Part shown: positions 1,384-62,087 of the stretch, one piece after another | Layout: each line of letters starts with the position of its first letter | Numbering within the stretch: position 1 is the first letter of the stretch | Assembly (NCBI RefSeq): GCF_009765865.1 | Contig: NZ_LMUQ01000003.1 | Location: 1-64,000 of the forward strand | Reading direction: 5' to 3' | DNA length: 64,000 bases | Source of the DNA: Acidisoma sp. L85 | GTDB taxonomy: Bacteria; Pseudomonadota; Alphaproteobacteria; Acetobacterales; Acetobacteraceae | Translations under genes and position numbers: made by a program | Notes under the pieces: model-generated | The model's database searches: none | What the model was told of the DNA's origin: nothing | What the model saw: the letters and a program-made list of their open reading frames with translations, nothing else

Positions 1384-1400
1384 GCCTCGGAAACTACCTA
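1384..1400 (-). promoter_or_regulatory. 17-bp island motif, upstream of MaoC gene
   Basis: Reads TAGGTAGTTTCCGAGGC on the minus strand, 129 bp before the MaoC start codon and pointing toward it. One of 18 oriented copies in the window. Confidence 0.75.
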
Positions 1401-2523
1401 TCCCGCTCGGAACCGTCTTCACGCTCAGGACCGCACCAGTTCCAGTTTCGGTAGGGCTGTGACGCCAGTTACCCAGGGGCACGAATGCAACGGATAACGC
1501 AGGACGGCGTCCGTAGCGATACCGTGATGTTGCATCGGGTCAGAAGCTGATCTAGTTAAATGCAACCCGGAGTTGTAAGAGCGGAAAGTCACTTCGCTAG
1601 CATCGGCCAGCAGGTGCAACCCTTGCTGGGGCGGGGTGCCCATATCCAGCCTGGCACAGCTCCCTGGATAGCGAGGCGGCGTCAAGGCCGCTCACCCCTC
1701 TATGCCTTTGGCGCCTGCGTGTAACCTTCCTGCATTCAGGCGCCAAACCCTTCAGCTCCATTCTCGCTTCCGGCAGAGCCTGACGGGCATCGCTGAGGCG
1801 ATGGACGAGGTCCAGGGGCACGCCACCGGGTCAGGCGGAACGTGATGCGCCGTAACCAGGTACAAGGGCGCTTGACCGAACAGGAACTCGCACTCCCGAT
1901 CGCGCGCTACATCGAGGACTGGAATTGCATGGCCGAGCGCGTCGGCGCGGAGAAGGCCGATCTCGGCGCCCTAACAGACCGCGCCAGACGCGGCCTGATA
2001 GCGATTGTGAAACGCAACAAGTGGCTGAGTGCGTTCTCCCAAATCGAAGAGAGCGCATGGGCACGCGGTAAGCTGAAGCGGGATTGGACCTTTGTTTGGA
2101 TCCTTGAGAACCACCATGTGTTGTGGCGGTTCGGCGGTTGACCTTTCGCATGGCGCGCTGGAAGCTCTGGACGCCGATGCCCGCCAACCAACTGTCCCGG
2201 TAACTATTGCGGTGAGATTATCGGAGTTCACCGACATGGCCGATCTGACGATCGCGATCGCTGGAGAGCCGCTGGATCAGCGCCTCTATTATATCCGGGT
2301 GGGAAAAACGGGCGCTCGGCGAAGTTGCTGGATGAGGTGCCTCTTTTCGGAGTGACGGTGTCATTGAACGGGCGGCAGGTTAGCCTGCTCCAAGATCCCG
2401 TGGGGCAGCACGTTTGCTTTTCGCCGCCGCGCGCGATCGGCCAAAATGACCGCTGCGACGAGGCGCTGCCACTAAGGCTAGCCGCGTCCAAATCTCGCCC
2501 CGGGTTCTCCGCGCGAACGCCCC

Positions 2524-2540
2524 TGAGTAGATTCCGAGGC
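2524..2540 (+). promoter_or_regulatory. 17-bp island motif, upstream of P-type ATPase
   Basis: Reads TGAGTAGATTCCGAGGC on the plus strand, 242 bp before the ATPase start codon, in the orientation shared by all copies. Confidence 0.75.
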
Positions 2541-2782
2541 TGGGCGTCATGCCGAGCAAATGTACTTGTCGGAGCTTCGGCTGCGAAGGCTCTCGCCTGC
2601 GTTGACAGCGCTGGTGGCTTCTTGGGCGACCGTTCGGCGCGCCGTCCTGGCCCAAATGCTCCGGTGCCGCGGCATTCCGGGTATTTGGGCATCGTTTGCC
2701 AGGAGGGCGCCGGACTTTGCGTGCCCATCAGCCGGCGACGCCTCGATTCCGCTCGAGCGCCTAGGAAAAGGAAGGACCCGCT

Positions 2783-5299
2783 ATGAATGTCAAGATCAAC
2801 CCGCTCAGCGTGTCGGATGCCAGCCTGGAATCGGAAGCGAAGGCAAAAACTTCGCCGAGTGCTGCACCTGCGCTGGAACCGGCGTCTAAAATGCGCTTGG
2901 CAACGCATGAGCTCAACCGAGCCGGGACACAGCCGAGCAAGTTCTCGAGCGGCGCCTCTCCAGACACCTTAACAGCTTCCCCCGGTTCCGCTTCAAAAGC
3001 TGGCTTGACAAGCGAAGAAGCCCGCCGCCGGCTCGTCAAATGCGGACCCAACGCCATGCCGGACACGAGCGTGAATCCCTTGCGCACGGCCTTGAAGAAG
3101 TTCTGGGCGCCTGTGCCGTGGATGCTAGAGGCTGCGATCGTGCTTGAGTTGATGCTTGGCAAGTTTGTCGAAGCCGCGATCATTGCCCTTCTGCTGGTAT
3201 TCAATGCCGCGCTCGGACTTTTCCAGGAAAGTCGTGCCCAGGCGACGCTCACCGCGCTGAAATCGCGGCTCGCACTAACCGTCTCTGTCCGACGTGATGG
3301 CATTTGGAAGACGGTGGCCGCCGCAGAGTTAGTGCCGGGCGACATTGTGAAGCTCTCGCTTGGCGGCGTAGTTGCGGCGGATGTGAAGCTCACTGCCGGT
3401 GATGTTCTACTTGACCAGTCTATGCTCACGGGCGAATCCGTACCCATCGAAGCCGGCGCCGGGGTTGAGACCTATGCAGGGGCGTTGATCCGGCGCGGCG
3501 AGGCGGAAGCGGAGGTCATCGCGACCGGCGCGCGGACCAAGTTCGGTCGTACGGCTGAACTCATTCGTACTGCCCACGTTGTCAGTACTCAACAAAGGGC
3601 CGTGCTGCGGGTGGTGCGCAATCTCGCCGGCTTCAATGGCATCGTCATCATACTGCTGGTGGCCTATGCATGGTATCTGAAGATGCCGGTCGCCGACATC
3701 GTACCTCTCATCCTGACAGCGATCCTGGCATCGATACCCGTCGCGCTGCCGGCCACTTTTACCCTTGCGTCGGCGCTCGGCGCGCGGGCTCTGGCGAAGT
3801 TAGGCGTCCTTCCGACTCGGCTCTCGGCGGTGGATGAAGCGGCGTCGATGGTCGTCCTGTGTGCCGACAAGACGGGCACATTGACCCAAAATGCGCTGAC
3901 GGTGACGACCGTCCACTCTATGCCGGGATACGATGACGCGCACGTGTTGGCACTGGCTGCAGTCGCGAGTTCGGATGGCGGGCAAGACCCAGTTGACGGC
4001 GCGATACGCGCGGCGGCCGCAAGCAGAACTCTACCCGACGCTCCGAAGCTTATCAACTTTGCCGCTTTTGATCCGACCAAGAAAATGTCCGAAGCAACCG
4101 CGACGGATCCGACGGGTGAGACACAGCGAATTTTGAAGGGCGCCTTCACCATCATTGTCGGACTTTCCCAGCCTGCGCCGACAGCGGCGGCCGCAGCCAA
4201 GGAGCTTGAGGATAAGGGTTTCCGCGTGCTGGCGGTCGCCGCCGGACCTGCGGCGGGGATCAAGCTCGCCGGACTGATTGCACTCAGCGACCCGCCTCGC
4301 GCTGATTCGGCGGCGCTCGTCGGCGAATTGCGCGGCCTCGGTGTCCGGACCGTGATGGTGACGGGCGACGCCCCCGCAACGGCAGCCATCGTCGCGAAAG
4401 CGGTGGGGCTTGATGGTGCGATCTGCCCGCCTGGGCCCATCCCCGACGCCGTCCACCCCGAGCAATACGCGATTTTCGCTGGCGTCCTGCCTGAAGACAA
4501 ATACAAGCTCGTCAAAGCTTTCCAGCGAGGCAGCCAAACCGTTGGCATGTGCGGCGACGGTGCCAATGATGCGCCGGCATTGCGTCAGGCCCAAATTGGA
4601 ATAGCGGTCTCTACGGCGACCGATGTCGCCAAATCTGCGGCCGGCATGGTGCTGACCGAGCCCGGACTGGCCGGCATCGTTGCCGCGGTCAAGGAAGGCC
4701 GAATCACATTTCAGCGCATCCTCAGCTACACGCTGAACTCCATTACGAAGAAAACCTTCCAGGTGCTGTTTCTGGGGATCGGCCTGCTCATGACCGGGCA
4801 TGCGATACTGACCCCATTGCTCATGGTTCTTATCATGGTCACCGGCGACTTCCTCGGCATGTCATTGACGACCGATAAAGTCCGGCCGTCGCCCGCTCCG
4901 AACGCGTGGCGGATCGGCCATTTGACGATCGCCGGCGTTATCATGGGCATGGGCGAATTGCTCTTCTGCACAGCTGTCCTCGCCTTCGGCGCTTACCGGT
5001 TGGGATTCACGATAAGCGCTCTGCAGACCCTGGCCTTCGTTGTTATCGTGTTCGGTAACCAGGCTACGACCTATACCAATCGTGAGCGTCGTCATCTGTG
5101 GTCGTCCCGCCCCAGTATCTGGCTCCTCCTCTCGTCCGTCGCCGATCTCCTTATAGCTTCGACACTGGCGATAGGAGGCATCGCAATGACACCTTTGCCG
5201 GCATGGGTGGTGGCCGGCACGCTCGCCGCTGCCGTTGCTTTCGCAATTCTCCTGGATTTCGTGAAGGTTCCGGTTTTCCGACGTCTCAGGATTACCTAG
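2783..5299 (+). CDS. P-type (P3A-like) proton/cation-exporting ATPase
   Basis: An 838-residue P-type ATPase of the plasma-membrane H+-ATPase type, which would pump protons out of the cytoplasm using ATP. After an unusual roughly 70-residue Ala/Ser-rich N-terminal tail comes the cation-ATPase N domain (EEARRRLVKCGPNAMP). Then follow the actuator loop LTGESVPIE (TGES at residues 216-219), the phosphorylation site DKTGTLT (Asp362) and the hinge motif GDGANDAP (residues 591-598). The membrane segments lie around 105-145, 270-330 and 655-835. No heavy-metal-binding CxxC is present, which argues against a copper or zinc exporter; H+ is inferred from overall similarity to plant/archaeal P3A pumps, and another monovalent cation remains possible. 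It is a single-gene unit with the 17-bp motif upstream and a purine-rich GGAAAAGGAAGGA before the ATG. It fits an acid- or energy-stress role. Confidence 0.88.
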   Translation: MNVKINPLSVSDASLESEAKAKTSPSAAPALEPASKMRLATHELNRAGTQPSKFSSGASPDTLTASPGSASKAGLTSEEARRRLVKCGPNAMPDTSVNPLRTALKKFWAPVPWMLEAAIVLELMLGKFVEAAIIALLLVFNAALGLFQESRAQATLTALKSRLALTVSVRRDGIWKTVAAAELVPGDIVKLSLGGVVAADVKLTAGDVLLDQSMLTGESVPIEAGAGVETYAGALIRRGEAEAEVIATGARTKFGRTAELIRTAHVVSTQQRAVLRVVRNLAGFNGIVIILLVAYAWYLKMPVADIVPLILTAILASIPVALPATFTLASALGARALAKLGVLPTRLSAVDEAASMVVLCADKTGTLTQNALTVTTVHSMPGYDDAHVLALAAVASSDGGQDPVDGAIRAAAASRTLPDAPKLINFAAFDPTKKMSEATATDPTGETQRILKGAFTIIVGLSQPAPTAAAAAKELEDKGFRVLAVAAGPAAGIKLAGLIALSDPPRADSAALVGELRGLGVRTVMVTGDAPATAAIVAKAVGLDGAICPPGPIPDAVHPEQYAIFAGVLPEDKYKLVKAFQRGSQTVGMCGDGANDAPALRQAQIGIAVSTATDVAKSAAGMVLTEPGLAGIVAAVKEGRITFQRILSYTLNSITKKTFQVLFLGIGLLMTGHAILTPLLMVLIMVTGDFLGMSLTTDKVRPSPAPNAWRIGHLTIAGVIMGMGELLFCTAVLAFGAYRLGFTISALQTLAFVVIVFGNQATTYTNRERRHLWSSRPSIWLLLSSVADLLIASTLAIGGIAMTPLPAWVVAGTLAAAVAFAILLDFVKVPVFRRLRIT

Positions 5300-5509: not shown

Positions 5510-6133
5510 TTATTTCGTCCCAGATCCAGTTTTGCAGATGCCGGGATCATCATGCTCAATTCGCACAATTTCTCGCGCGATATCCTCGGGTGAAAGGACA
5601 AAATCAATACATCCCGTCGCGATCGCGCTCTCAGGCATATCGGGGTGCTTGGCTGTCTCAAGCTTTTGCGCAATGGTAATTCCTCCCGCCTCCTTTATGC
5701 CGCACAGCGCTGCTGCCCCGTCACCGTCGTAGCCGGAGACGATCACCGCGATAATCTTGCCTCTCCAATGCCGCGCCAGCGAATGCAGAAAAACGGTGAT
5801 GACGTCCGGCCATCCCCGCGGCTTGGAAATCGGCTTTAGACGAAATGCACCGCCGAGGACGTGAAGATCGCGCTGTGCAGGGATGATGAACACATGGTTG
5901 GGGCGGAGGGTCAAACCGTCCGTGATTAGCTCGACCGGCATTTCGGTGTAGCGCGGGAGGATCTCGTGGAGCTGGGTGGCCACGATTCTCAAGTGGTTAA
6001 CGATGACAATCGCAACGCCCGTATCAGCCGGCAGGCGCCGTAGTAGCCGCGTGTAGGCGTCAAGACCACCAGCCGAACCACCTACGCACACGACAGGAAA
6101 GTCGGTTGAACAGCGATTAGAGCTCATGGACAT
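5510..6133 (-). CDS. stand-alone CheB-type methylesterase domain protein
   Basis: A 207-residue protein consisting only of the CheB catalytic domain, which removes methyl groups from chemoreceptor glutamates. The Ser-His-Asp elements are present: GGSAGG near residues 18-23, VNH near 45, and the GYDGDG loop near 136. There is no receiver domain, no CheR and no chemoreceptor nearby, so control by phosphorylation is absent. Such lone CheB domains often occur with CheB/CheR-PAS hybrid kinases, and this island has one (41268-45749). A role in stress signalling rather than flagellar chemotaxis is therefore more likely (inference). Two ATG codons lie at 6133 and 6127, and either could be the start. 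The 17-bp motif is about 260 bp upstream. Confidence 0.8.
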   Translation of the reverse strand: MSMSSNRCSTDFPVVCVGGSAGGLDAYTRLLRRLPADTGVAIVIVNHLRIVATQLHEILPRYTEMPVELITDGLTLRPNHVFIIPAQRDLHVLGGAFRLKPISKPRGWPDVITVFLHSLARHWRGKIIAVIVSGYDGDGAAALCGIKEAGGITIAQKLETAKHPDMPESAIATGCIDFVLSPEDIAREIVRIEHDDPGICKTGSGTK

Positions 6134-6371: not shown

Positions 6372-6976
6372 ACGGTCGCGCTAAGGTCGCTAACCTCGGA
6401 ATCTACCTACGATATCCTCTTACTCGATCTTGGGTCACAAAACCGACGGATAAGGAGGTGTGGTGATGTATGAGAGATGAGGGGAGGCTCCTCCAGGTCG
6501 GCGGTCAGGTGCAGGCCTTAAATTGCCGCAAGCTGCGGACGTCAAGAGCGGCCTTGGCGCGAATTACAGAAAAGCCGGGATTTGATTTTCGGCAGGCATG
6601 AATCGGAGCGCGAGTCATACCGTCGATGATTGAACCGCACTAACTGATGCCGAAACCGGGGTAGGCGCTTCTTCCAGGACAATCGCGGGGACAGACCTGG
6701 AAGCTGCCTTAGCGGCAGCCGGGCGGTTAGGCGGTGCGGAACCAGACGGGCCCTTGTATGGAAGAGTCAGCTCGGTCCTCCAATGCGAAGGGAGATGAAC
6801 AAGTGGCAAAATCCTGAGGGACGGGACTAGCGACGCGCGAAATTGCGGCGGTCTGTAGTGGGGAGAAAAGTTCTGTTGTGGGCCTACCCGCTTTGCAATA
6901 TCCGGACCTATCACTGAGTCCCTGTCGGATGACGAAGCCATCAAAGCCTATAACGACATAGAAAATTGGCAGCCAG
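6372..6976. other. 0.6-kb intergenic stretch with motif and a lone ribosome binding site
   Basis: Contains the 17-bp motif at 6393-6409. Farther along the plus strand a very strong Shine-Dalgarno sequence (TAAGGAGGTG, 6451-6460) is followed by ATG at 6466, but the frame stops after four codons (Met-Tyr-Glu-Arg). A minus-strand frame at 6615-6944 (109 codons) resembles nothing I know. A minus-strand frame at 6117-6371 overlapping the CheB start is also possible but unsupported. Confidence 0.45.
6393..6409 (-). promoter_or_regulatory. 17-bp island motif, upstream of CheB-domain gene
   Basis: Reads TAGGTAGATTCCGAGGT on the minus strand, pointing to the CheB-domain gene, 260 bp before its start. 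Confidence 0.7.
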
Positions 6977-7684
6977 CTAGGGATTAGGTCCGAATGACGC
7001 TATCAACGGTTCTTTGAATACGACACGATCCTCAACAGAGACTACGCCAGAGACGGTTTCTGCCGCGACACGAAGTGCGCCCCGCGCTTGTGGGTCATGG
7101 ATGGTCCCGTGGAGCGTGACCACACCGGCTTGTACCTGTAGGGTCACGCGACTATTCTCCAAGCAGGACATATCATGAAATTTAGTGTAGATCTGAGCTT
7201 CAATTTCCTGATCGCTTCCTCCTAACATCGGAATTTCGGCAAGCTTCCGACCAAGCGCAGTAACGAGATCAGCACGACTCACGATACCCGTAAGGCGTCC
7301 GCCTTGGACGACCGGAACGCGCCGGATGCGGTGCTTCTCCATGAGTCTCACGACTTCCTCGAGCAGGGTCTCATCCGCCACAGTGACGACCTTACGGGTC
7401 ATAAGGTCGTCGACGCGTCGGCTGTGTGTGCGCACGTACTCCTCCGCCGCGTGCCGATGGCCGACTAGCAGTTCAAGGAAACCCGGACGATGACAATCGC
7501 TCGTGCCGGTCTCGACTCTCCGCAACAAATCGCCCTGTGTCAGGATACCGACTAACTTGCCACCGCTTGAGATCACGGGGACGCCGCTGACGCGACTCAC
7601 CACCATGATTCTTATCGCCATATCAATCTTAGCAAACGGTCCTACCGTCAGCACCTCTTTCGTCATGATATCGCCAGCTTTCAT
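6977..7684 (-). CDS. CBS-pair plus BON domain protein
   Basis: A 235-residue cytoplasmic protein. Two CBS repeats occupy about residues 1-140 (MKAGDIMTKEVLTV and DDLMTRKVVTV mark the starts of each half) and form a Bateman module that usually senses adenine nucleotides such as AMP/ATP. A BON domain follows at about 160-225, a fold often linked to membrane or phospholipid contact. CBS-BON proteins are common in stress and dormancy loci; the exact partner is unknown. The gene stands alone on the minus strand, with the 17-bp motif 282 bp upstream and a GGAGGG-type ribosome site before the ATG. Related CBS and BON proteins occur at 26565 and 27348. Confidence 0.88.
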   Translation of the reverse strand: MKAGDIMTKEVLTVGPFAKIDMAIRIMVVSRVSGVPVISSGGKLVGILTQGDLLRRVETGTSDCHRPGFLELLVGHRHAAEEYVRTHSRRVDDLMTRKVVTVADETLLEEVVRLMEKHRIRRVPVVQGGRLTGIVSRADLVTALGRKLAEIPMLGGSDQEIEAQIYTKFHDMSCLENSRVTLQVQAGVVTLHGTIHDPQARGALRVAAETVSGVVSVEDRVVFKEPLIASFGPNP

Positions 7685-7965
7685 AAACCCTCCTTTGATC
7701 CACTATGGTCGGCGCCGCACGGGACGTGCAGGGCGAATTCCGGATGCCTTCCGGATGTGCTAACTGCCAACGTATTCAAATTGCGTTCGATCGGAGTTCA
7801 CGCATTGCAGCCTCGATCGGCCTGGCGTTTGTAGACCTATCCATCCGGAGCCGTGTCACAGTTTTTGAAGAACTGCGAAGGCGGCATCTTGATCCGAACC
7901 TCCCAGGATCCGCCAAGACTGAGGACGTTCGGGAAAGAAATAGGATTTAGCAGCAGGAGTCGCCA

Positions 7966-7982
7966 CCCTCGGAATATACCTA
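7966..7982 (-). promoter_or_regulatory. 17-bp island motif, upstream of CBS-BON gene
   Basis: Reads TAGGTATATTCCGAGGG on the minus strand, 282 bp before the CBS-BON start and pointing toward it. Confidence 0.72.
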
Positions 7983-8516: not shown

Positions 8517-8533
8517 TGAGTAGATTCCGAGCC
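8517..8533 (+). promoter_or_regulatory. 17-bp island motif, upstream of the decarboxylase operon
   Basis: Reads TGAGTAGATTCCGAGCC on the plus strand, 84 bp before the decarboxylase ATG. It is the only copy before the six-gene operon 8618-17602, and its position argues against the longer reading frame that opens at 8417. Confidence 0.78.
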
Positions 8534-8617
8534 TACCAGCCCGTGCTGTTGGACCGTATTAAAAGTCCCGGCCCACACATCCCGACGCTTTCAACAAACC
8601 TAAAAACGAGGCATGAC

Positions 8618-10402
8618 ATGGACGCACTACCCCCAAAAGTCGCGGCGACCAAACACGCCACGTCAAAGGCTTATGAGAGCCACTTCAAAGCCGATGGCGC
8701 TGCTCACGACAAGGCGCCGAAATGGGCGAAGTACCGCACGGAGATGACTGGCGAGTTTCCGCTCCCGTATCGTGGCGGCAAGGATCCGCTGGCCGAGCAA
8801 ATCGGCAAATTCGTCGGCAAGCTCGACATGCTCCGGCCGGAGAAGGGCGGTCCTGCCTATCTCGGTGACAGCGGCGCACTCACCTGGACCTACCCCGAAG
8901 TCAAGGATGTGAAAATTGCCCGTGAGATGGGCACCCTTGAGGGCGTTCTCGATGAGGTCGTGGGGATGTTCCAGGGCCTCGGCAATTGGGGCAGTCCGCT
9001 GACGATGTGCAACGTGCTGCCGCAGGGCAACACTGCGGCGATCATGGCATCTATGATGGCGCAGGTGTTCGCGCCCAGTCTGATCGAGGGCGAATACTCC
9101 TGGAACGTGCAACGTGCCGAGCTCGAGACGGCGGGCATGCTTGGTAACCTGATCGGCTGGGACCCACTCAACACCGGTGCGATCTTCACGTGGGGCGGCA
9201 GCGGGTGTTGGACCTACGGCCTTAAATACGGGCTTACGCGCGTGCTGCCGCATTCGCGCGAGAAGGGCATCCGCACTGACGCCAAGGTCATCTGCTCGCA
9301 GCAGGCCCACTACGTGCAGGAGAACGCCAGCGACTGGACCGGGATCGGCATGGACAACGTCGTTCGTGTACAGACCGATGTTGTCACCAACCAGATGGAT
9401 GTCGTCGACCTCGAGCGCATCCTCAAGGAACTTACGGCGTCGAAGACGCCGGTTGCGGCCATCGTCTGCACGATGGGCACGACAGACTCCAGTGCCTTCG
9501 ACCCCATCGCCAAAGTGCGTGCGCTGCTCGATCGCTACCCGAATCCCGAAGGCTTCGGCAAGGCGATCCTCTACGCGGACGCCGTGGTCGGATGGTCATG
9601 GATTTACTTTAAGGACTATGACTTCGCCACAAATCCGCTCGGTTTCTCCGATCGCGTTCTGCCGATTCTGCGGCAGAACGGCGAGATGATGAAGGAGATC
9701 GAGCACGCGGACTGCGTGGGTATCGACTTCCACAAGGTCGGTTTCGCGCCATACGTTAGTAGCTGTTTCCTCTACAAGGACGCCGCCGCGTTTGAATCCC
9801 TGCACCGCCGTGGCAAAGACGCATATCTTCAAGTCCGCACGCCATATAATCCGATGTATTATACGCTGGAAGTGTCGCGGACCTGCTCCGGCGCGCTCGC
9901 TGGCTGGGCGACGCTGAAATACTTCGGTCTTGAGGGCATGCAGGCGATCCTCGGCGGAATCCTGGAGACCAAGTACTACCTCGAGGATCTCGTCGACACA
10001 CAACCCGATATGGTATGCGTCAATCCTGAAGACACCGGCCTCATCACGTTGTTTCGCGTCTATCCTAAGGGCACGAACGCGAAGGCGCAGTTCACTAAGG
10101 AACTGACCGAACCCGCAGGGCGCGCAGACCTCATCAAGAACAATCAGTTGACCGAAGCCGTCGGCAACAAGCTGTTCGAGTGGTTCCGCGCCGGCAAGAA
10201 GCTCGACGGCAAATACACGCCGTGGATGAGTTTCAGCACTGGCTTCCGGGTCGCTGACTACAACCGGGATGAGCAGGATTCAGAAGAAGTCGTGTTCGCG
10301 CTGAAATCCTTCCCGATGAATGTTTTCGTCACGCCGGAAACCATGAAATGGGCTGTCCACTGCGTGCATGCTGCCCGCGACGAAGTGCTCAAGGACGCCT
10401 GA
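8618..10402 (+). CDS. group II PLP-dependent amino-acid decarboxylase (glutamate decarboxylase-like)
   Basis: A 594-residue pyridoxal-phosphate decarboxylase. The PLP lysine is in GIDFHKVGFAPY (Lys373), preceded by the ADAVVGWSW segment that carries the cofactor-ring aspartate. It probably converts glutamate (possibly another acidic amino acid) to the amine plus CO2, consuming one cytoplasmic proton. The call of glutamate rests mainly on the adjacent GadC-like antiporter; the protein is longer than and different from classical GadB (about 466 residues), so the substrate is open. I chose the ATG at 8618, after an ACGAGG ribosome site. The frame is open back to 8417, but that part is Pro/Arg-rich and contains the regulatory motif. 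First gene of an acid-resistance-type operon. Confidence 0.82.
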   Translation: MDALPPKVAATKHATSKAYESHFKADGAAHDKAPKWAKYRTEMTGEFPLPYRGGKDPLAEQIGKFVGKLDMLRPEKGGPAYLGDSGALTWTYPEVKDVKIAREMGTLEGVLDEVVGMFQGLGNWGSPLTMCNVLPQGNTAAIMASMMAQVFAPSLIEGEYSWNVQRAELETAGMLGNLIGWDPLNTGAIFTWGGSGCWTYGLKYGLTRVLPHSREKGIRTDAKVICSQQAHYVQENASDWTGIGMDNVVRVQTDVVTNQMDVVDLERILKELTASKTPVAAIVCTMGTTDSSAFDPIAKVRALLDRYPNPEGFGKAILYADAVVGWSWIYFKDYDFATNPLGFSDRVLPILRQNGEMMKEIEHADCVGIDFHKVGFAPYVSSCFLYKDAAAFESLHRRGKDAYLQVRTPYNPMYYTLEVSRTCSGALAGWATLKYFGLEGMQAILGGILETKYYLEDLVDTQPDMVCVNPEDTGLITLFRVYPKGTNAKAQFTKELTEPAGRADLIKNNQLTEAVGNKLFEWFRAGKKLDGKYTPWMSFSTGFRVADYNRDEQDSEEVVFALKSFPMNVFVTPETMKWAVHCVHAARDEVLKDA

Positions 10403-10421
10403 TCTTCGTCGGTTGATCCAG

Positions 10422-10445
10422 ACGGTCGGCCATTAGGCCGACCGT
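10422..10445 (+). terminator. strong hairpin between decarboxylase and antiporter genes
   Basis: A perfect 10-bp inverted repeat, ACGGTCGGCC (10422-10431) and GGCCGACCGT (10436-10445), with an ATTA loop. No T-run follows, so it may be a partial terminator, attenuator or mRNA-stabilising stem that sets the ratio of enzyme to transporter rather than a full stop. Confidence 0.6.
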
Positions 10446-10467
10446 TGCCTTGAACGATGGGGTTATC

Positions 10468-13052: not shown

Positions 13053-13089
13053 CATGATATCCGCAACCCGCCCCGTGCAGAGGAGTCTA

Positions 13090-14175: not shown

Positions 14176-15849
<1,674 letters not shown>

Positions 15850-15898
15850 CCGGACCAGCGTCAGAATCTCGTTTGCCCACACCCAAGGAGTTGCATCA

Positions 15899-40950: not shown

Positions 40951-41138
40951 GAGACTATAGTCCCAATAATCGTGCGCCTTGGCTGGCAGGCTAAGATGCC
41001 ACGCGTGGCCGGCATGGTCAGTTCTCCAATCTGGGTCGCCATCGGCGCCGATCTCCACATACGGTGCTCACGCCAAACATCTGTCGGCCAGCTCAGCCAG
41101 CCTTACATCCTTGTCCCCACGAAAACAAAAAGAGGGTA

Positions 41139-41155
41139 GGTTCGGAAATTACCTA
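41139..41155 (-). promoter_or_regulatory. 17-bp island motif, upstream of receiver gene
   Basis: Reads TAGGTAATTTCCGAACC on the minus strand, pointing to the receiver gene. It is also within 130 bp of the hybrid-kinase start, but in the opposite orientation to that gene. Confidence 0.72.
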
Positions 41156-46060: not shown

Positions 46061-46683
46061 CGGCCGGGCTGGCCTCGCGGCCAACGCAATCGCGGTCCCG
46101 CTTGAGTAGGCGGTGATGACCGTATCCTAGTTATTGCGGAATCGGCGGCAGGAAGCTGTCGGGCATTGCCTCGAAATCTTTTGCCCATAGGCGATGCGCC
46201 GCGCGGGCCGCCCGCTTCCGTTGTTTTCACACTCGAGTGTCGCTTCAGCCGAAGCCTTCCTCTACGCCGCTTTCTCTGCGCTACTGCTGAGCGGGCTGTG
46301 CCGTTGTTGATCAGTCTCGGAATGGAATCTAAGTCTTTTGAGCAGAGAAGAGACAGGGTTTGACATGGCTCTGCCCGACGGCAGGTAGCCGTAGCAGAGG
46401 TTGCAGTGCGGGCGCCTGCTGCGCTGACCCATCTTTCGGGGCCTGTAGCCCCCAGTGCACAACCCTCGAAAAGCCTGCATACTGCGAGATGGGTCACCCC
46501 TCCTCAGGCGAACATTTGGTCTAGGTATTTTCCGAGCCTCCTCCAATGCCCCGCATTCGACTACGTTGAGTGAAAGAACGACCGAAGGCGAGATGATTTG
46601 AGTTTTCTTCTTGGCGTTGTTTGGCCGCCGAAACCATGGCTTAGCTTTGATCGTGAGAACTGGATTCATATCTTGAGGTACAA
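46061..46683. other. region between the IS5 fragment and the glucan synthase
   Basis: No supported gene. It contains the 17-bp motif at 46522-46538 in front of the glucan synthase. Confidence 0.45.
46522..46538 (+). promoter_or_regulatory. 17-bp island motif, upstream of glucan synthase operon
   Basis: Reads TAGGTATTTTCCGAGCC on the plus strand, 145 bp before the TTG start of the glucan synthase. Confidence 0.76.
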
Positions 46684-53400: not shown

Positions 53401-55313
53401 CTTGGAACATGGCGTTTCCGTCTCGCGTTGCTTTTGCAGATCTGCGCGGAGGTCACACGAGTTGGACCGGCGACCGCCGTGAGTTCATCGGCCGCAACGG
53501 CACGCTCGCGAATCCTGCCGCGCTCAGCAGCGCGGCGCCGCTTTCCAAAACTGTTGGCGCAGGTTTAGATCCATGCGGCGCGTTGCGGAGAAAAGTCGAG
53601 GTCCCGGCGAACGGCAGTGTCGAGATCGCCTTTTTCCTGGGCGACGCGGCAAGCGTTGATGAGGCGCGGAACTTGATCACGCATTATCGTACAGCCGATC
53701 TGGGTGCAGTCCTCGCGGCCGCGATAGGTTACTGGGACGACGCCCTGGGCAAGATCGAAATAAAGACGCCCGACCGATCGATGGATATCATGACGAATGG
53801 CTGGCTCCTTTACCAGACACTCGCCTGTCGCGTCTGGGCGCGGTCTGCCTTCTACCAGGCCAGCGGTGCCTATGGCTTCCGCGATCAACTCCAGGACGGT
53901 ATGGCGCTGGCGGTCTCACGCCCGGCACTCACGCGTGAGCACTTGTTGCGAGCTGCCGCGCGGCAATTTGTCGAGGGCGACGTCCAGCATTGGTGGCTAC
54001 CGCATTCGGGTCAGGGTGTTCGGACCCGGATATCGGATGATCGCGCCTGGCTTGCCTACGCGGTCGGCCACTACCTCAGTGTTACCGCCGAATTCGCGGT
54101 TCTTGACGAGCCGGTAGCCTTCTTGGAAGGCCAGGCGTTGAGGGCGGATGAGCACGATGCCTTCTTCCTGCCGGCAGCTTCCGATCAGACAGCCAGCTTG
54201 TTCGAGCATTGCGCCCTGGCTCTCGATCACAGCCTCGCGGTCGGCGACCTCGGGCTTCCGCTGATGGGCACAGGAGATTGGAATGATGGCATGAACCGCG
54301 TCGGAGAGGGAGGAAAGGGGCAGAGCGTTTGGCTCGGCTGGTTTCTCCACGCCGCGCTGACGGCGTTCATTCCGATTGCGCGCAACCGGGGGGAGAAGGA
54401 GCGGGCTGTGGCATGGGAGACACATGCTGTTGCCCTGCAGGCGTCGCTAGAGCGCGAAGCATGGGATGGCGATTGGTATCGGCGCGGCTTCTTCGATGAC
54501 GGCACCGCGCTAGGATCGGCCGGGAGCCTAGAATGCCAGATCGACTCCATAGCGCAGTCCTGGGCGGTGCTCTCCGGAGCGTCAAAGGCCGACCGAGCGA
54601 GCCACGCAATGGCATTCGTCAAGCGGGACCTGATTCGGCCCCAGGACGGCCTGGCGCTGCTGTTTGCGCCGCCATTCGACAAGACGCCGCTCGATCCCGG
54701 CTATATCAAAGGTTATCCGCCAGGTATCCGAGAGAACGGAGGCCAGTATACTCACGCCGCTCTCTGGTCGGTCATGGCCTTTGCGGCCCTAGGCGATGGT
54801 GACGAGGCGGCCAGCCTGTTTGCACTTCTGAACCCGATCAATCACTCGCATACACGCGCTGACGTCTATCGCTACAAGGTCGAACCCTACGTGGTCTCGG
54901 CCGATGTCTACGCCATGCCACCCCATGTCGGGCGGGGCGGTTGGACCTGGTACACGGGCTCCGCCGGCTGGATGTACCGCGCCGCTACCGAAAGCATTCT
55001 CGGCCTGCATCTGCTTGGGGAGATCCTGCATCTCGAACCTTGCATCCCGAAATCATGGCCAGGCTTCGAGATACGGCTCCGACATGGCTCCGCGAGTTAC
55101 GAGATCCGCGTCGAGAATCCTGCCGGGGCCGGGCAAGGTATCGTATCCGCATCGATCGATGGAAAGGCGATCCTCGAACGACCTTTCCGCCTAAAGCTCG
55201 TGGATGACGGGGCCATCCATCGGGTTCAGGTCGGGCTTGGGGCGATGATTCGAGACCGGCCGGCATCGAGCGACGTCCTTTTAGGAAAAGAGACAGATGA
55301 GCCAGCGGGTTAG
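47403..55313 (+). CDS. ndvB: cyclic beta-1,2-glucan synthase, main part (GT84 and GH94)
   Basis: A 2636-residue frame, giving about 2876 residues when joined to the preceding piece, close to the 2830-2870 of NdvB/Cgs proteins. It includes membrane helices near residues 180-240 and 580-680, the GT84 glycosyltransferase with TLDADT (Asp392/Asp394) and HHRWARGDWQL, two carbohydrate-binding GH94-associated regions, and the C-terminal GH94 phosphorylase with catalytic GDWNDGMN (Asp2295 by this frame's numbering). Such proteins make and size-control periplasmic cyclic glucans from UDP-glucose; the GH94 domain releases glucose 1-phosphate. The next gene, phosphoglucomutase, overlaps its end by 17 bp and connects that product to glucose 6-phosphate. 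The GTG at 47403 is not a convincing independent start. Confidence 0.88.
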   Translation: MHRLRDQDPKVSPALTWLDARLSAQGVTADLVVRDVHRVQSATNVTVRNIITSLRLVSDVDWNDAIEQVSLVDDVLAEESAFREMDFPTRNLYRTAVEELARGADHTETDIARIAVLKARAANRPCSAGANARLADPGYYLFAGGRRAFETEIGFHRPLHKWAARLNRSVGIAGYGTAVAAFTVVLLAMPLLALSRAGVSGAGLSLFGFLGLIPAVDAAVSLVNRAVSFGVSATLLPGLELRDGVPSDLRTLVAIPTLLTTLKAVEEQINRLEIHHLASLGGDLHFALVSDWVDALTEHAEADGALLAAAADGIARLNRQYGPAPGGTRFLLFHRRRVWNGGEARWIGWERKRGKLHELNRLLRAATDTNFLEIDGRPLLAPRDVRYVVTLDADTRLPRDTVRRLIGKMAHPLNRPRVDAAKSRVIEGYGVLQPRVTPSLPVGREGSLFQRIFSSSSGIDSYSAAVSDVYQDLFGEGSYAGKGIYDIDAFEASLAGRVPESSLLSHDLFEGVFARAGLASDIEVIEEFPSRYDISALRHHRWARGDWQLLPWILGRGPMAVRAARMFGAMPPIGRCKMLDNLRRTLSAPVAMVALLAGWTLTLNQAVTWTVFILATIIVPAAIPVIVSIRPRGPGITVGSHLRALGRDSRLASTLFAFTIMFLAHQAWLMGDAIARTLWRLFVVRRHLLEWVPAAQANLCPRLDVFGSYRKMVAAPLIGGAAILLSVIFGRGTWPLVAPFAVLWAFSPAGARWVSRSPRVAIRPSRSDPRTSVLRLTARRTWRFFETFVTSADHMLPPDNFQETPTPTVAHRTSPTNIGLYLLSVASARDLGWIGLVEATERLEATLATLHGLPRFRGHFYNWYGTLDLRPLDPVYISSVDSGNLAGHLIALANVCRDWKTNSFDAAGRLGGIADAIALTHEEARRFRDLPRTQTVTWRELDGALANLAIMSERPLSTPDELSQRLAGLAGQAETIADMARAFAEERGPDVGKDMVFWAEASLNTIATHCRDLGLTAAADDAIKVRLSAIESVARSLALGMDFGFLFDEKRRLLSIGYLLSDNTLDSNCYDLLASEARLASFFAIAKGDVPARHWFRLGRSVTPVARGAALISWSGSMFEYLMPSLIMRAPGGSLFEQTSRLIVRRQIDYASGLDLPWGISESAYNVRDLEFTYQYSNFGVPGLGLKRGLGENRVIAPYATALATMVDLHAASRNLTRLAAIGGLGRYGFYEALDYTPARVPVGERVAIVQAFMAHHQGMTIAAIADALLDGVMRSRFHAEPIIQATELLLQERPPREIAVARPWAADATSSRSHDMEAPGGRRFASAHQVTPATHLLSNGRYALMLTAAGSGYSRWGDLAVTRWREDATCDDRGSYVYLRDVRSGQVWSATFQPTAIEPQEYHVVFNEDRAEFTRRDGTLTTIMDALVSVEDDAEVRRVTITNTGNRPREVEVTSYAELVLAPQAADVSHPAFSKLFVQTEFLPEVGAILATRRRRTPEEPEIWAAHLAVVDGEAVGGIEIETDRARFLGRGRDPRTPIAMTDARPLSNTIGTVLDPVFALRRKVRVAAGSTATVAFWTIVASTRKALLDDVDKHRDTAAFARAGTLAWTQAQVQLNHFGITAAEAGLFQRLAGYVIYATRTLRPSSDSLIRGAGPQSGLWAQGISGDLPIVLLRISDIENLDIARQLSQAHEYWRMKQLAVDLVILNERQSSYVQDLQVAIDAQVRTSQSRWRTGAKGPSGRVFVLRADLIPPETKALLGSAARVVFVAQRGSLFDQLDRIAETGNAARAPTQIAPPRVEAVLAPVSPKLEFFNGLGGFADGGKEYVTILGPGLSTPAPWINVIANPTFGFQVAADGGGYTWSANSREYQLTPWSNDPVTDPSGEVLYLRDDESGDVWTPTALPMRDEGATYIAHHGRGYTRFKNSAHGVDVELLQYVPIDAPVKISRLILHNRSRKARRLSVTAYVEWVLAPSRSSSLPFVTTEIDPSTGAIFARNPWNMAFPSRVAFADLRGGHTSWTGDRREFIGRNGTLANPAALSSAAPLSKTVGAGLDPCGALRRKVEVPANGSVEIAFFLGDAASVDEARNLITHYRTADLGAVLAAAIGYWDDALGKIEIKTPDRSMDIMTNGWLLYQTLACRVWARSAFYQASGAYGFRDQLQDGMALAVSRPALTREHLLRAAARQFVEGDVQHWWLPHSGQGVRTRISDDRAWLAYAVGHYLSVTAEFAVLDEPVAFLEGQALRADEHDAFFLPAASDQTASLFEHCALALDHSLAVGDLGLPLMGTGDWNDGMNRVGEGGKGQSVWLGWFLHAALTAFIPIARNRGEKERAVAWETHAVALQASLEREAWDGDWYRRGFFDDGTALGSAGSLECQIDSIAQSWAVLSGASKADRASHAMAFVKRDLIRPQDGLALLFAPPFDKTPLDPGYIKGYPPGIRENGGQYTHAALWSVMAFAALGDGDEAASLFALLNPINHSHTRADVYRYKVEPYVVSADVYAMPPHVGRGGWTWYTGSAGWMYRAATESILGLHLLGEILHLEPCIPKSWPGFEIRLRHGSASYEIRVENPAGAGQGIVSASIDGKAILERPFRLKLVDDGAIHRVQVGLGAMIRDRPASSDVLLGKETDEPAG

Positions 55314-56964
55314 CCCTTTTGCCGGGAAGACAGCCGATCCCTCCCGGCTCATCAATGTGCCTCGGCTGATAACTGCGTATTTTACCGGTAGACCGGACCC
55401 GACCATTCCCTCGCAACGGGTCTCCTTTGGCACCTCGGGACACCGAGGATCCGCCTTCGAGAACTCCTTCAACGAAGCTCATATCCTCGCCATCAGTCAG
55501 GCGATTTGCCATCATCGCGTAACCCAACGAATCGACGGCCCCTTGTTCATCGGGATTGATACACACGCACTGTCCGAGCCGGCATTGGCAAGTGCACTAG
55601 AAGTATTTGTCGCCAACGAGGTGAATGTGATGTTCGACGCGAACAGCGGTTATACACCGACGCCGGTCATTTCTCACGCCATTCTGACTTACAACAGGAA
55701 CCGCAAGAGCGGTCTGGCCGATGGGATTGTGATTACGCCGTCTCACAATCCGCCAGAGGACGGAGGCTTTAAGTACAATCCGCCGACGGGCGGCCCTGCG
55801 GACACCCAGGACACGGGCAAAATCGCGCAGCTCGCGAACAGGAGCCTGGAGGACAAGCTCGAGGGTGTAAAACGCATTCCGTACGATCGTGCTCTCAAAT
55901 CATCCTGGGTCCACAAGCACGATTACGTTGGCTCCTATGTCGCCGATCTAGCCAACGTCGTTGACATGGAAATGATCCGCGCCTCCGGTGTAGAAATAGG
56001 GATCGATCCACTAGGAGGCGCCAGCGTCCACTACTGGCAACCCATAATCGAGACATACGGCATCGCGGCGACGGTCGTGAATGAAGTGATAGACCCGACG
56101 TTTCGGTTCATGCCCGTCGACTGGGATGGAAAGATACGGATGGATTGCTCTTCCCCCTACGCCATGACGGGCCTGATCGCTATGCGTGACAGATTCGATG
56201 TCGCCTTCGCGACCGACACAGATGCTGACCGACACGGCATCGTCAACCGGTCGGGCGGCTTGATGGAGCCGAACCAGTTTCTCGCGACGGCGATAGCCTA
56301 CCTTTTTGCGAACCGACCCGGCTGGAGTGAGCGTTGCTGCATTGGCAAGACGATTGTCAGCAGCAGTATCATCGACCGCGCCGCCAAAATGTTGAACCGG
56401 AACGTTGTAGAAGTCCCGGTAGGATTCAAATGGTTCGTTGGCGGATTAGCCGATGGGCTGCTCGGCTTTGCAGGTGAGGAAAGCGCGGGGGCATCGTTCC
56501 TGCGCTGCGACGGAACGGCGTGGACGACTGACAAGGACGGCTTAATCCTCGGCCTACTTGCTGCGGAAATCACTGCGTGCACAAAGCATGATCCGGGTAT
56601 TTTCTACCAGGCGCTTGGCCAAAAGCTGGGGACGTCCTTCTACGAAAGAACCGACGCGCCCGCGACCTCGGAACAGAAGGCGCTCCTGGCAGCGATGTCG
56701 CCGGATGAGTTTGGCATGACAGAGCTCGCCGGCGAGCCGATACGGGCGAAGCTAACGACCGCCCCTGGGAACGGTTCTCCAATCGGAGGCCTTAAGGTTG
56801 TCGCTCAAAATGGATGGTTCGCCGCGAGGCCCTCAGGGACGGAAGATATTTACAAGATTTATGCCGAAAGCTTCCAGGGCGAAGAGCATCTTCGGCAGAT
56901 CCAGCGGGAGGCGCAAGAGGCTCTCGACGAGGTATTCAAGGGTGCTGGACTGTCCGAGGCGTAA
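55297..56964 (+). CDS. pgm: phosphoglucomutase (alpha-D-glucose phosphate-specific)
   Basis: A 555-residue alpha-D-phosphohexomutase interconverting glucose 1-phosphate and glucose 6-phosphate. The phosphoserine loop is ITPSHNPP (Ser149), the Mg loop DTDADRHG (Asp307, Asp309, Asp311), the sugar loop GEESAG, and the phosphate-binding loop ARPSGTEDIYK near residue 512. Its length agrees with bacterial Pgm. The ATG overlaps the glucan synthase stop by 17 bp, so the two are translationally coupled. It could either supply precursor for UDP-glucose or recover glucose 1-phosphate released by the GH94 domain (inference). A hairpin follows the stop. Confidence 0.94.
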   Translation: MSQRVSPFAGKTADPSRLINVPRLITAYFTGRPDPTIPSQRVSFGTSGHRGSAFENSFNEAHILAISQAICHHRVTQRIDGPLFIGIDTHALSEPALASALEVFVANEVNVMFDANSGYTPTPVISHAILTYNRNRKSGLADGIVITPSHNPPEDGGFKYNPPTGGPADTQDTGKIAQLANRSLEDKLEGVKRIPYDRALKSSWVHKHDYVGSYVADLANVVDMEMIRASGVEIGIDPLGGASVHYWQPIIETYGIAATVVNEVIDPTFRFMPVDWDGKIRMDCSSPYAMTGLIAMRDRFDVAFATDTDADRHGIVNRSGGLMEPNQFLATAIAYLFANRPGWSERCCIGKTIVSSSIIDRAAKMLNRNVVEVPVGFKWFVGGLADGLLGFAGEESAGASFLRCDGTAWTTDKDGLILGLLAAEITACTKHDPGIFYQALGQKLGTSFYERTDAPATSEQKALLAAMSPDEFGMTELAGEPIRAKLTTAPGNGSPIGGLKVVAQNGWFAARPSGTEDIYKIYAESFQGEEHLRQIQREAQEALDEVFKGAGLSEA

Positions 56965-57012: not shown

Positions 57013-57029
57013 TAGGTATTTTCCGAGTC
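57013..57029 (+). promoter_or_regulatory. 17-bp island motif, upstream of small ORF
   Basis: Reads TAGGTATTTTCCGAGTC on the plus strand, 83 bp before the ATG of the 66-residue protein. Confidence 0.72.
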
Positions 57030-57112
57030 TACCTATTCGGCTTGCGCCACATTAACTCCTCGAGGCGATAGGTCGCTCACCTATCACCCCAACAAGAGCT
57101 GTAGGAGATACC

Positions 57113-57313
57113 ATGGCGAATGATGCGACTCTTCCGATCATGCGCGTGAATACGGCGAAGCCTATGCAGGCAGAAAGAGACCGAAGCGCAATGGACATGC
57201 AAGTGTCATCGGAGGATCAGTCCGCGGTTTCGGCACAAGAGACACAAGCGCTCAAATCAGGCCAGCCAACCCAGCTTACGGCGCCGGGACGCAAGCCCCT
57301 ATTCCGAACCTGA
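57113..57313 (+). CDS. small hydrophilic protein of unknown function
   Basis: A 66-residue, low-complexity, Gln/Ser/Ala-rich polar protein with no membrane segment or known domain. Support comes from an AGGAG ribosome site 6 bases before the ATG and from the 17-bp motif 83 bp upstream, the same spacing as before other regulated genes. It may be a small stress-induced protein. The stop TGA lies directly before a cytochrome c' relic. Confidence 0.5.
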   Translation: MANDATLPIMRVNTAKPMQAERDRSAMDMQVSSEDQSAVSAQETQALKSGQPTQLTAPGRKPLFRT

Positions 57314-57628
57314 TGTGGCTCGGCTCCTTGCACCGCAGCGTATAGTAGAAGCTGGAGCGCCGCAGCTACGGAGGAGTCCGCACATGATCTGGTCTCATGG
57401 TCACGGCGGCTGGGTGAGTTGTTCCCTCCTGGTGAGGCGACAGCGGAATACGTGGATATGAGCCCAGAGCGACTGAGGGGTGCCCCTGCCGCAATGAGAG
57501 AGACGTCCGAAATGCTGCTGGCGGCGGTGCAAAATGGTAACCGCGCGGACATTGGGAGCCAGCTCGCTAACACCGAGAAAAATGGTTGTGGCTTTTGTCA
57601 CCTCAATACGAACACCAGCATCAGATGA
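57314..57628 (+). pseudogene. cytochrome c'-like C-terminal remnant
   Basis: An open frame without a start codon whose product matches the second half of class II cytochromes c': WSRRLGELFPPGEA, then METSEM-like helix (MRETSEMLLAAVQNGNRADIG), and the C-terminal haem site CGFCH. The signal peptide and first helices are missing. It probably lost its 5' part when neighbouring DNA rearranged. Cytochrome c' proteins bind NO or O2-like ligands in the periplasm, fitting the island's theme. Confidence 0.55.
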
Positions 57629-57647
57629 CGCAACCAAATTCTGGATC

Positions 57648-58611
57648 CTAGGTGTTTAGTCCCCGCCTTTGGTGGGGCGGGTTTGAGGCGAACCGCTCTG
57701 GCTCGTTTTGCCAGGTTCGGCAGAGAAATTCGTATGGTGTGAGACCGTTGAGCGTCTTCAGTCGGCGGCCGAAGTTGTAGGCGCTGACGAACTGCTCGAG
57801 ATGGCGACGAAGCTGCTCGTGGTCGTCGTAATGGTACCGCTGGACGGTCGCTTCCTTGATGGTCGGTTCATCCTCTCGACCTGACCATTGGTCCAGGGAT
57901 GATTGATTTTGGTGAAGCGATGCTCGATGTCGTTCTCGCGGCAACGCATCTCGAACATGTGGGTGATGAACCGCGCTGTTGGTCCATTGGCATAGCGTTG
58001 TGGAAGCCGGAACTGGATGCCGTTGTCGGTCAGCACCGTGTGGATGCGATAGGGCACGGCCTTGATAGTGCGACCAGGAAAGCCGACGCCGTGACGCGAT
58101 TGGCTTTCTCCACCAGCTGCGCGAAAGCGAACTTGCTAGTGCGGTCGATGGCAACGAAGAGATACAGCTTGCCTTCCGCGGTCTGCACCTCCGCGATATC
58201 GACGTGAAAGAAGCCGATCGGATAGGCTTTGAACTTCTTCTTCGGCGCCTTGTCGCCCTCGACGTCCGGCAGACGCCCGATGCCGTGACGAGCGAGGCAG
58301 CGGTGCAGCGACGAGCGCGTGAGATGCGGGATGGTGGCCTGCAGTGCGTAGAGGCAATCATCGAGCGGGAGCAGTGTGTGCCTGCGAAACGCGACGACGA
58401 TAGCCTCATCGGTGACCGAGAGGCTGGTTGAACGCGGCTCCCGCGGCCCCGTCGGCAGGTCAGCGACAGAGGTTCGGCGCTTCCACTTGGCAACCGTCTT
58501 CTGGTTGATGCCATAGCGCTTAGCGAGCGCCCTCAGGCTCGCTTGACTATGCTGTATCGCGCGACGGACCGCCGCAGTCGTGGTGGCGCTCCCGTGGAGA
58601 ACCTGGCCCAT
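57648..58611 (-). pseudogene. IS481-family transposase, broken by two frameshifts
   Basis: The N-terminal helix-turn-helix (ALAKRYGINQKTVAKWKRR) and the first DDE aspartate (FHVDIAEVQTAEGKLYLFVAID) lie in the first frame up to about 58064. Then LTDNGIQF to KINHPWTNGQVERMN continues in a second frame, and TIKEATVQRYHYDDHEQL to the end RGLNT in a third, entered near 57868. Each shift can be mended by adding one base. The transposase is therefore not functional. Confidence 0.85.
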
Positions 58612-61009: not shown

Positions 61010-61396
61010 TCATTGGAACGGAATCGTTATTGTGACCCGGCGACTTTCAAGAGACGTTCCGACGAAGGCTGTTGACCCATTCGATGTCTGATGAATGCGA
61101 GCGGCAGGAACTCCATCTGCGGTTAGTTGATCAACCACCACCTGGGCTCGGGTGGCCGACAATAGCGCGCCCGCGCGAGGCGACCCCGTCGTATCCGCAA
61201 AGCCAGTAACTAGCAGAGTGCCGGCGCCACGCTTGCTAGCCATGCCCGCGGCGTCGCGGACAGCTTCAGCAGCAGGCTTGTCGATCCTCGCGGACCATTT
61301 GGTAAAAAATATAACGACATTGCGACTCTCTGCGCTAGCCACACAGGGTAGTGCCACCAAACTAGAAAGGATTAGAATTCCGAGTGTCTTTCCCAT
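61010..61396 (-). CDS. periplasmic OmpA-like domain protein
   Basis: A 128-residue exported protein: signal peptide (about residues 1-22, LVALPCVASAES) followed by a single OmpA/MotB peptidoglycan-binding domain (VTGFADTTGSPRAGALLSATRAQVVVDQL). There is no beta-barrel or lipobox, so it is probably soluble in the periplasm and binds the cell wall. The key TGFADTTG and LSATRA elements are conserved, while the second arginine helix is shortened (GTSLESRRVTITI). It has the 17-bp motif 217 bp upstream. Confidence 0.82.
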   Translation of the reverse strand: MGKTLGILILSSLVALPCVASAESRNVVIFFTKWSARIDKPAAEAVRDAAGMASKRGAGTLLVTGFADTTGSPRAGALLSATRAQVVVDQLTADGVPAARIHQTSNGSTAFVGTSLESRRVTITIPFQ

Positions 61397-61612
61397 CGCT
61401 ACGTCAACCCTCTAGATGTTCGAAAGAATGTTGATACCTTGGCGTGCAGCCCACCTGGCCGCCCTCAACTCGTTCAAGTACCTACGCAAATTCGCTGACT
61501 TAGGCACAAACTGATGGAACCGGAGCAGGACTCATTTTGTGGACAACCTCTCAGCACATATTCGGCAAGTTAATGTCCAGAGCACGTTAGCTTAGCGAAT
61601 CGTCCCTTGGTA

Positions 61613-61629
61613 GGTTCGGAAACTACTCA
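61613..61629 (-). promoter_or_regulatory. 17-bp island motif, upstream of OmpA-like gene
   Basis: Reads TGAGTAGTTTCCGAACC on the minus strand, 217 bp before the OmpA-like start and pointing toward it. Confidence 0.74.
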
Positions 61630-62070
61630 GAGAAACGGGTTCGCTGACGGGCTGGTCTGACTCCCTCATTGTGAAATGAGCAACAATGCTGATCCGGCGC
61701 TGACGATGTTGCTCACGGATTCGGGTGGACTCCCAGATCTCGCGGCGCCGCCGCGCAATGGCGACCCATCTTATAGCGGTTCGTCTATAAATGCGACCAC
61801 GTCCTCTTCTTCAGGAAGATACTGCGAGGTCGACGCGGGTCGGCTTGACGCGTGTCTGTTATCGACGGATGAATCGGTTCACGACCCTTTACTCGGGACG
61901 CCATCGCGAAATCCATGACAATCAAATGCTTAGGGAGCTCGTGCTAGCGCTCTCAGTCCCATGGCGAACGAGCAAGGCGGGGCTTCCACTTAGCGGCTAA
62001 ATGACGACCGCTCTCGAAATGCACACGGCCGCATTCCCAGCGTCAAATGAATGCCCTGTGTCAGTGGTTC

Positions 62071-62087
62071 TAGGTATTTTCCGAGCC
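62071..62087 (+). promoter_or_regulatory. 17-bp island motif, upstream of PRC-barrel gene
   Basis: Reads TAGGTATTTTCCGAGCC on the plus strand, 202 bp before the PRC-barrel ATG. Confidence 0.75.

Follow-up and report, generated by a model that had tools for sequence, protein, structure and literature searches.

Eighteen copies of one strictly conserved DNA site, spread over a single island, are very probably the promoter elements of one FixJ-type transcription activator that the island itself encodes (positions 41268–45749). This reading was reached from sequence, by analysing a window of 64,000 nucleotides (the whole stretch of DNA under study) together with the rest of its genome and other genomes. 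The site, its spacing, its orientation, its confinement to the island and the association of the DNA-binding HTH with the motif across genomes were computed directly. The initial annotation had read the sites as an island-wide stress regulon. Motif density, orientation, the fixed −10 spacing, the near-absence of the motif from the rest of the genome and its recurrence in genomes that bear one HTH family strongly support the prediction that a single promoter code unites the island.

A strict motif confined to one island

The initial annotation described 18 copies of a 17-bp motif where about 0.01 would be expected by chance. An exact search of the window for the 14-base core, TRRGTANWTTCCGA, recovered all 18 at the places given (the minus-strand coordinates of that annotation include three trailing N) against an expectation of 0.01, and the most copies found in any of 100 shuffles of the window was one. 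The ten positions said never to vary are invariant in all 18 copies. Positions 2–3 were said to be always AG or GA; this is so in the window, with nine copies of each, but not at the 213 distinct sites near regulator homologues elsewhere, 37 of which have AA or GG. The extent of 17 bp proved too short, as CT follows the core two bases later: T occupies offset 17 in 18/18 window sites and C occupies offset 16 in 16/18, and CT is found at offsets 16–17 in 199 of the 213 distinct sites around homologues elsewhere.

A scan of the whole genome (6,376,414 bases in 85 contigs) returned the same 18 exact copies of the 14-mer and no further one; all fall inside 62 kb, and the backwards control of the 14-mer occurs once in the genome. 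With up to one mismatch, the 18-mer TRRGTANWTTCCGANNCT is found at 19 genomic places, 18 on the window's contig and one outside it. When up to two mismatches are allowed, the 14-mer has 24 matches in the window against a shuffle mean of 4.5, so the six near misses beyond the exact 18 are at about chance level and the set of exact sites is unusually strict. Because every exact site in the genome lies on the island, the predicted targets all lie there as well.

According to our own simple gene finder, which supplied the gene calls in the window, all 18 copies are intergenic, as first described. Each had also been placed 80–280 bp before the gene it serves; for 16 of the 18, a same-strand gene start lies 97–381 bp downstream. 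The copy at 36825 (minus strand) is 731 bp from its gene, and that at 57013 (plus strand) has no such gene close by.

Predicted targets along the island

Site 1 (1383–1400, minus) precedes a MaoC-like gene (785–1255) and site 2 (2524–2541, plus) a P-type ATPase (2783–5299). Site 3 (6392–6409, minus), in which T17 is kept and C16 is changed to T, stands before a stand-alone CheB (5510–6133); site 4 (7965–7982, minus), in which C16 is changed to G, stands before a CBS-BON gene (6977–7684). Behind site 5 (8517–8534, plus) a same-strand run of genes (8618–17602) comprises a PLP decarboxylase, an amino acid permease, an asparaginase, an aspartate 4-decarboxylase and AspT. Site 6 (19659–19676, minus) is followed by a biotin/lipoyl-like gene (19151–19399) and then a USP (18087–18917), site 7 (21959–21976, plus) by a periplasmic sugar-binding protein (starting at 22178 or 22340 and ending at 23179), site 8 (24427–24444, minus) by a second USP (23411–24241) and site 9 (24642–24659, plus) by a succinyl-CoA:acetate CoA-transferase (24771–26288). 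Site 10 (28076–28093, minus) precedes a triple-BON gene (27348–27995), and site 11 (34991–35008, minus), which contains the dyad TAGGTAG-N9-CTACCTA, precedes the genes of an F1F0-type ATPase (28160–34722).

The target of site 12 (36808–36825, minus) is the least certain, since a long gap of 731 bp separates the site from a PAS-GGDEF gene (35093–36094). Site 13 (36977–36994, plus) lies before a phosphoketolase (37204–39633). Site 14 (41138–41155, minus) lies between the proposed regulator and a divergent gene for a receiver-domain protein (40600–41058, minus), 97 bp upstream of the latter and aimed at it. Site 15 (46522–46539, plus) precedes a gene at 46684–47448, then a 2636-aa frame (47403–55313), putatively NdvB-like (a glucan synthase in the initial annotation), and a phosphoglucomutase (55297–56964). 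Site 16 (57013–57030, plus) faces a broken cytochrome-c-like frame (57060–57700) and has no called same-strand gene close by; a transposase remnant with an rve domain (57648–58514) lies beside that frame. Site 17 (61612–61629, minus) precedes an OmpA gene (61010–61396), followed by YflT-like and histidine phosphatase genes, and site 18 (62071–62088, plus) a PRC-barrel gene (62289–63206).

The aspartate 4-decarboxylase, the aspartate–alanine antiporter, the succinyl-CoA:acetate CoA-transferase and the type II asparaginase score above the NCBIfam cut-off. Below it are the P-type ATPase at 2783–5299, for which the best model is of the proton-efflux type, and an alternate F1F0-ATPase; for the first decarboxylase of the site 5 run, no NCBIfam model scores above cut-off. 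The gene content suggests a regulon for acid and energy stress, perhaps also for low oxygen: aspartate decarboxylation with AspT, the ATPases, the CoA-transferase, the phosphoketolase and the USP, BON, CBS, PRC and OmpA proteins make acid and energy stress the likeliest theme.

Promoter layout

At 131 of the 213 distinct sites near regulator homologues elsewhere, a −10-like TANNNT starts at offset 39–41, compared with 4, 4, 2 and 2 of the 213 at four control triplets. In the window, only 8 of the 18 sites have an exact TANNNT at this offset. A site that covers the −35 position at a fixed distance from the −10 is the class II activator layout, and the fixed −10 at offset 39–41 points to an activator that replaces the −35 element. 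In the usual promoter numbering, the centre of the site would presumably fall near −41, in place of that element. The site flanks have little in common beyond the −10.

Offset 11 is the centre of a partial dyad symmetry in the consensus; the symmetry is fullest at the site ending at 35008. Across the 213 sites, pairing between the arms of the dyad does not exceed what column composition predicts, and the arms show no co-variation, so the symmetry is visible in the consensus and in single sites only.

A candidate regulator in one chain

The regulator of the 18 sites is most likely the 1493-aa protein encoded at 41268–45749 (plus), a candidate identified from its Pfam domains, its homologues and a structure match to FixJ. 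The Pfam domains run in the order CheB, CheR, PAS, HisKA/HATPase, REC, REC and a LuxR/FixJ-type HTH (45477–45674, plus). The end of the chain, a receiver domain followed by a LuxR/FixJ HTH (Pfam REC + GerE), has the make-up of a FixJ-type response regulator. The best PDB match of the last 200 residues is FixJ (5xso; E = 9.4e-38 over 195 residues), and DevR/DosR (3c3w) matches the C-terminal part with E = 1.3e-13. All 29 of 29 candidates were scored against the regulator HTH, and at E ≤ 1e-14 the genome contains no match to it but the regulator itself. A second FixJ-like regulator, 39% identical, is encoded on the same contig 9 kb past the window (L191; G000:C52:73171–73752), and the stretch around it contains no exact motif.

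The HTH and the motif recur together

In an even sample of 384 other alphaproteobacterial genomes (the class sample), the 18-base motif is present in 15 of the 16 genomes with an HTH at least 70% identical, a line drawn after the first table, and in 10 of the 368 non-carriers (Fisher, 1.5e-19). The sixteenth carrier, G038, contains three copies of the 14-mer. Only a single motif copy is found in 6 of the 15 motif-bearing carriers and in 7 of the 10 motif-bearing non-carriers; as the backwards pattern gave five hits in this sample, several of the ten non-carrier motifs may be due to chance. Grouped by long homologues (E ≤ 1e-200) instead, the 18-mer occurs in 13 of 15 genomes with such a homologue and in 12 of 369 without. 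Eight of the nine genomes whose best HTH is only 50–60% identical lack the motif.

A second sample consisted of 298 genomes from the family of a Paraburkholderia genome (G408), with the centre genome left out. Here the motif is present in all four HTH carriers, with two to seven copies each, and in 2 of the 294 others, with one each (4.7e-8); the backwards pattern gave three hits. The association is looser in the 39 nearest relatives: the 14-mer occurs in 8 of 10 HTH carriers and in 6 of 29 non-carriers, and two or more copies occur in 7 of the 10 carriers and in 2 of the 29 non-carriers (G008 and G023). The set of relatives and the class sample overlap in 16 genomes (G024–G039), and the family and class names of sampled genomes were taken by inference from named homologue records. 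Conservation in relatives was a check proposed by the initial annotation; the motif recurs with the HTH in other genomes, with exceptions in both directions.

Among the motif-bearing exceptions, G008 (four copies) and G023 (three copies) are both fragmented assemblies. G366 and G089 of the class sample have two copies each and no HTH match at E ≤ 1e-14, G089 having a 52% REC-HTH match, and G083 has four copies although its HTH is only 56% identical. The occurrence of two to four motifs with no HTH match at E ≤ 1e-14 in G008, G023 and G366 may be due either to fragmentation of the assemblies or to a second protein that reads the site. Conversely, G058 (HTH 60% identical) has no motif, a Skermanella genome with a full-length homologue (L104/G413) has zero copies of the 18-mer, and among the carriers in the set of relatives, G009 and G016 have no 14-mer and G011 has one. 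We considered a specificity residue in the recognition helix for these three carriers, which have A (G009), A (G016) and E (G011) after HRA, as if residue and motif co-varied. Many loci with ENHRAA bear the motif, however, so this reading fails. The homologue in G009 (L050, about 60% identical) has VVDGE for VVDDD in the last receiver and a changed recognition helix, and its genome is free of the motif. It is possibly a decayed regulator, and a single case of one.

Islands and plasmids in other genomes

Around 80 homologue loci, 215 exact motifs were found in 1.55 Mb, compared with zero matches to the reversed string; nine of the 80 loci are free of the motif in the sequence examined. After five motifs were dropped at contig edges, 175 of the remaining 210 have a same-strand gene start within 400 bp downstream, 9 face a gene end and 26 have no called gene within 400 bp; by the simple finder, 21 of the 210 lie inside genes. 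Random intergenic points face a same-strand gene start in 1445 of 3125 cases and a gene end in 1048. In orientation and in position, the motifs are far from what chance would give. Proteins encoded first behind a motif (172 of the 175) include 24 with receiver domains, 12 PRC, 9 BON, 9 ferritin-like, 7 CsbD and 7 DUF3309 proteins. In 48 of 77 loci the 600 bp upstream of the regulator contain a motif directed away from it, and in one locus a motif directed toward it.

The near relative G003 has 31 exact copies, 30 of them in two islands that each contain one copy of the regulator. These islands share with the window, in a different order, a phosphoketolase (82% identical), CheB, the giant 2636-aa gene and PRC, BON and receiver homologues. 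A same-strand motif lies 95–678 bp ahead of the phosphoketolase, CheB, three PRC genes, one BON gene and one receiver gene, and ahead of one copy of the giant gene, of which there are two; for 4 of the 30 motifs the next gene is on the opposite strand, and 3 of the 30 lie within called genes. Gene-by-gene footprinting over the 80 loci gave no significant difference between homologues of motif-first window genes (32 of 73 motif-first) and homologues of other window genes (3 of 10; p = 0.51), against a background of 179 of 1212.

In motif-bearing genomes that lack the long protein, our domain reading identified shorter HTH proteins of 881, 640, 610 and 144 aa. Motifs lie about 0.1 and 0.8 kb away from the start of the 881-aa protein, the 640-aa protein has a degraded kinase part and one motif at its end, and the nearest motif in the stretch to the 610-aa protein is almost 8 kb off. 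The 144-aa protein (L198:5821–6255, G285), which contains little beyond the HTH, is flanked by two motifs and is possibly a stand-alone reader of the same code. A 369-aa protein (G074) has no motif within the 8 kb examined.

Homologues are borne on plasmids of Methylocystis, Caballeronia, Phyllobacterium, Acidiphilium and others. A plasmid search returned 246 records at E ≤ 1e-100, 21 of which cover 80% or more, and the three plasmid stretches that were read contain 3, 6 and 2 exact 14-mers. The protein-and-site pair recurs in other alpha- and betaproteobacteria and on plasmids. Caballeronia sordidicola PAMC 26633 has three regulator loci (L125, L151 and L153) and 46 copies of the 18-mer, the most of the genomes examined. 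The genome of Rhodoblastus acidophilus DSM 142 (L132), another carrier, has 14 copies of the 18-mer. Locus L098, a contig titled Mycobacterium sp. KBS0706, encodes a regulator of 63% identity and bears three motifs; mislabelling or contamination of the record is possible.

Proposed mechanism and alternatives

In the mechanism that we favour, a single polypeptide combines presumed sensing modules (CheB, CheR and PAS), a histidine kinase, two receivers and the DNA-binding HTH. A stress signal would lead the kinase to phosphorylate the last receiver, and an HTH dimer would bind T-RR-GTAG-WTTCCGA-NN-CT, with its centre some 41 bp ahead of the transcription start. The bound activator would recruit sigma70 polymerase, substituting for a −35 element, with the −10 TANNNT about 22 bp beyond the site. 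The divergent receiver gene (40600–41058), itself a predicted target, may provide feedback.

Three observations argue against a different reader of the sites: in each of two separate samples the motif goes with a close HTH, eight of the nine genomes with a best HTH of 50–60% identity lack the motif, and the 144-aa, near-HTH-only protein sits between two motifs. Such a reader, for instance another FixJ-like response regulator with the giant protein as a linked sensor only, is improbable in our judgement, even though the genome encodes other FixJ-like proteins (one, 39% identical, 9 kb past the window), 76 of 77 loci have no site within 600 bp upstream that is aimed at the gene of the giant protein, and the several motifs without an HTH match in G008, G023 and G366 would fit it.

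We give considerably less credence to the motif as the −35 part of a promoter for an alternative (ECF-type) sigma factor. The usual spacing for a −10 at offset 40 implies a −35 at about offset 17–22, whereas the conserved block occupies offsets 0–17; moreover, the −10 is of the ordinary TANNNT type, the conserved protein linked to the motif carries an HTH of the FixJ type and the motif sequence agrees with that of a FixJ site. The strict single direction of the motif, its fixed distance to a −10-like element and the few sigma-factor-like target genes elsewhere would fit a promoter of that kind. Least plausible of all is a non-regulatory origin of the sites as a repeat or a mobile-element relic that duplication has spread. 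The window does contain a transposase remnant, and one homologous plasmid locus is crowded with transposases, but flanks that share little beyond the −10, an orientation and placement far from random and the same core in alpha- and betaproteobacteria all speak against such an origin.

A broader proposal, which we are as ready to doubt as to hold, is that of a transferable regulon: an all-in-one signalling factor, together with operons under a strict FixJ-derived code, would move as islands or plasmids between alpha- and betaproteobacteria and depend on the host for little more than sigma70 polymerase. While the code stayed fixed, the HTH would have been re-used with varied sensor halves (CheB-CheR-PAS, PAS-PAS or nearly none), and chemotaxis methyl-transfer enzymes would be wired into a transcription phosphorelay.

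Stress islands are annotated gene by gene; the analysis makes of them predicted regulons that have a candidate regulator and a sequence-readable promoter code. The function of CheB-CheR-kinase fusions becomes open to direct testing, and the island is an example of a regulon that seemingly travels as a unit. If confirmed, FixJ-type DNA recognition would reach well beyond nitrogen fixation.

Comparison with known systems

The initial annotation compared the island with DosR. In mycobacteria, DosR/DevR is one LuxR/NarL-type response regulator that controls many stress operons, USP genes included, and the comparison holds in kind: a single regulator with an HTH of this type would govern many stress operons on the island, with USPs among them. 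However, FixJ is the nearer relative (9.4e-38 versus 1.3e-13), the candidate is not a DosR/DevR orthologue by this measure, and the DosR box, a palindrome, probably differs from the island site. The PhyR/EcfG general stress response has overlapping kinds of target (CsbD, PRC, ferritin-like and DUF3309), but its regulator differs, as probably does the EcfG promoter element from the island motif.

The lxa locus of Burkholderia cenocepacia is a clustered 50-gene stress locus with six USPs that is induced by low oxygen (PMC9733578, PMC6127331). The likeness, in kinds of genes alone, is that of a clustered stress locus with USPs; these two papers mention no DNA motif (0 occurrences of 'motif'). A search of open-licence papers for the motif letters, CheB/CheR-kinase fusions and the island gene set returned no description of the motif or the regulator; the search by motif letters was narrow, as the FixJ site in PMC4999443 holds such letters within a longer word.

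FixJ is the closest known system. A published account of FixJ cites the SELEX sites GTAGTTTCCC and GTAMGTAG and, for S. meliloti, the fixK site TAAGTAATTTCCCTTA, and reports that four genes in Rhizobiales are preceded by FixJ sites (PMC4999443). The fixK site conforms to the island consensus TRRGTANWTTCC over its first 12 positions, and GTAGTTTCC is common to the island site and the SELEX class GTAGTTTCCC; by contrast, after TTCC the island has GA-NN-CT where the FixJ site has CTTA, and positions 2–3 are AA in the fixK site and AG or GA in the window's own sites (PMC4999443). The island also has 18 strict sites, compared with the four genes described for Rhizobiales (PMC4999443). The REC-HTH output part resembles FixJ, with 5xso as its best structure match. 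Unlike FixLJ proper, with its separate FixL and FixJ proteins, the kinase, receivers and HTH share one 1493-aa frame with CheB and CheR. As the first 12 positions fit the fixK site and the remainder differs, the candidate is, as far as its sequence and sites can tell, a regulator of the FixJ type whose code is a variant, whose signalling would run within one chain and whose predicted regulon spans the island.
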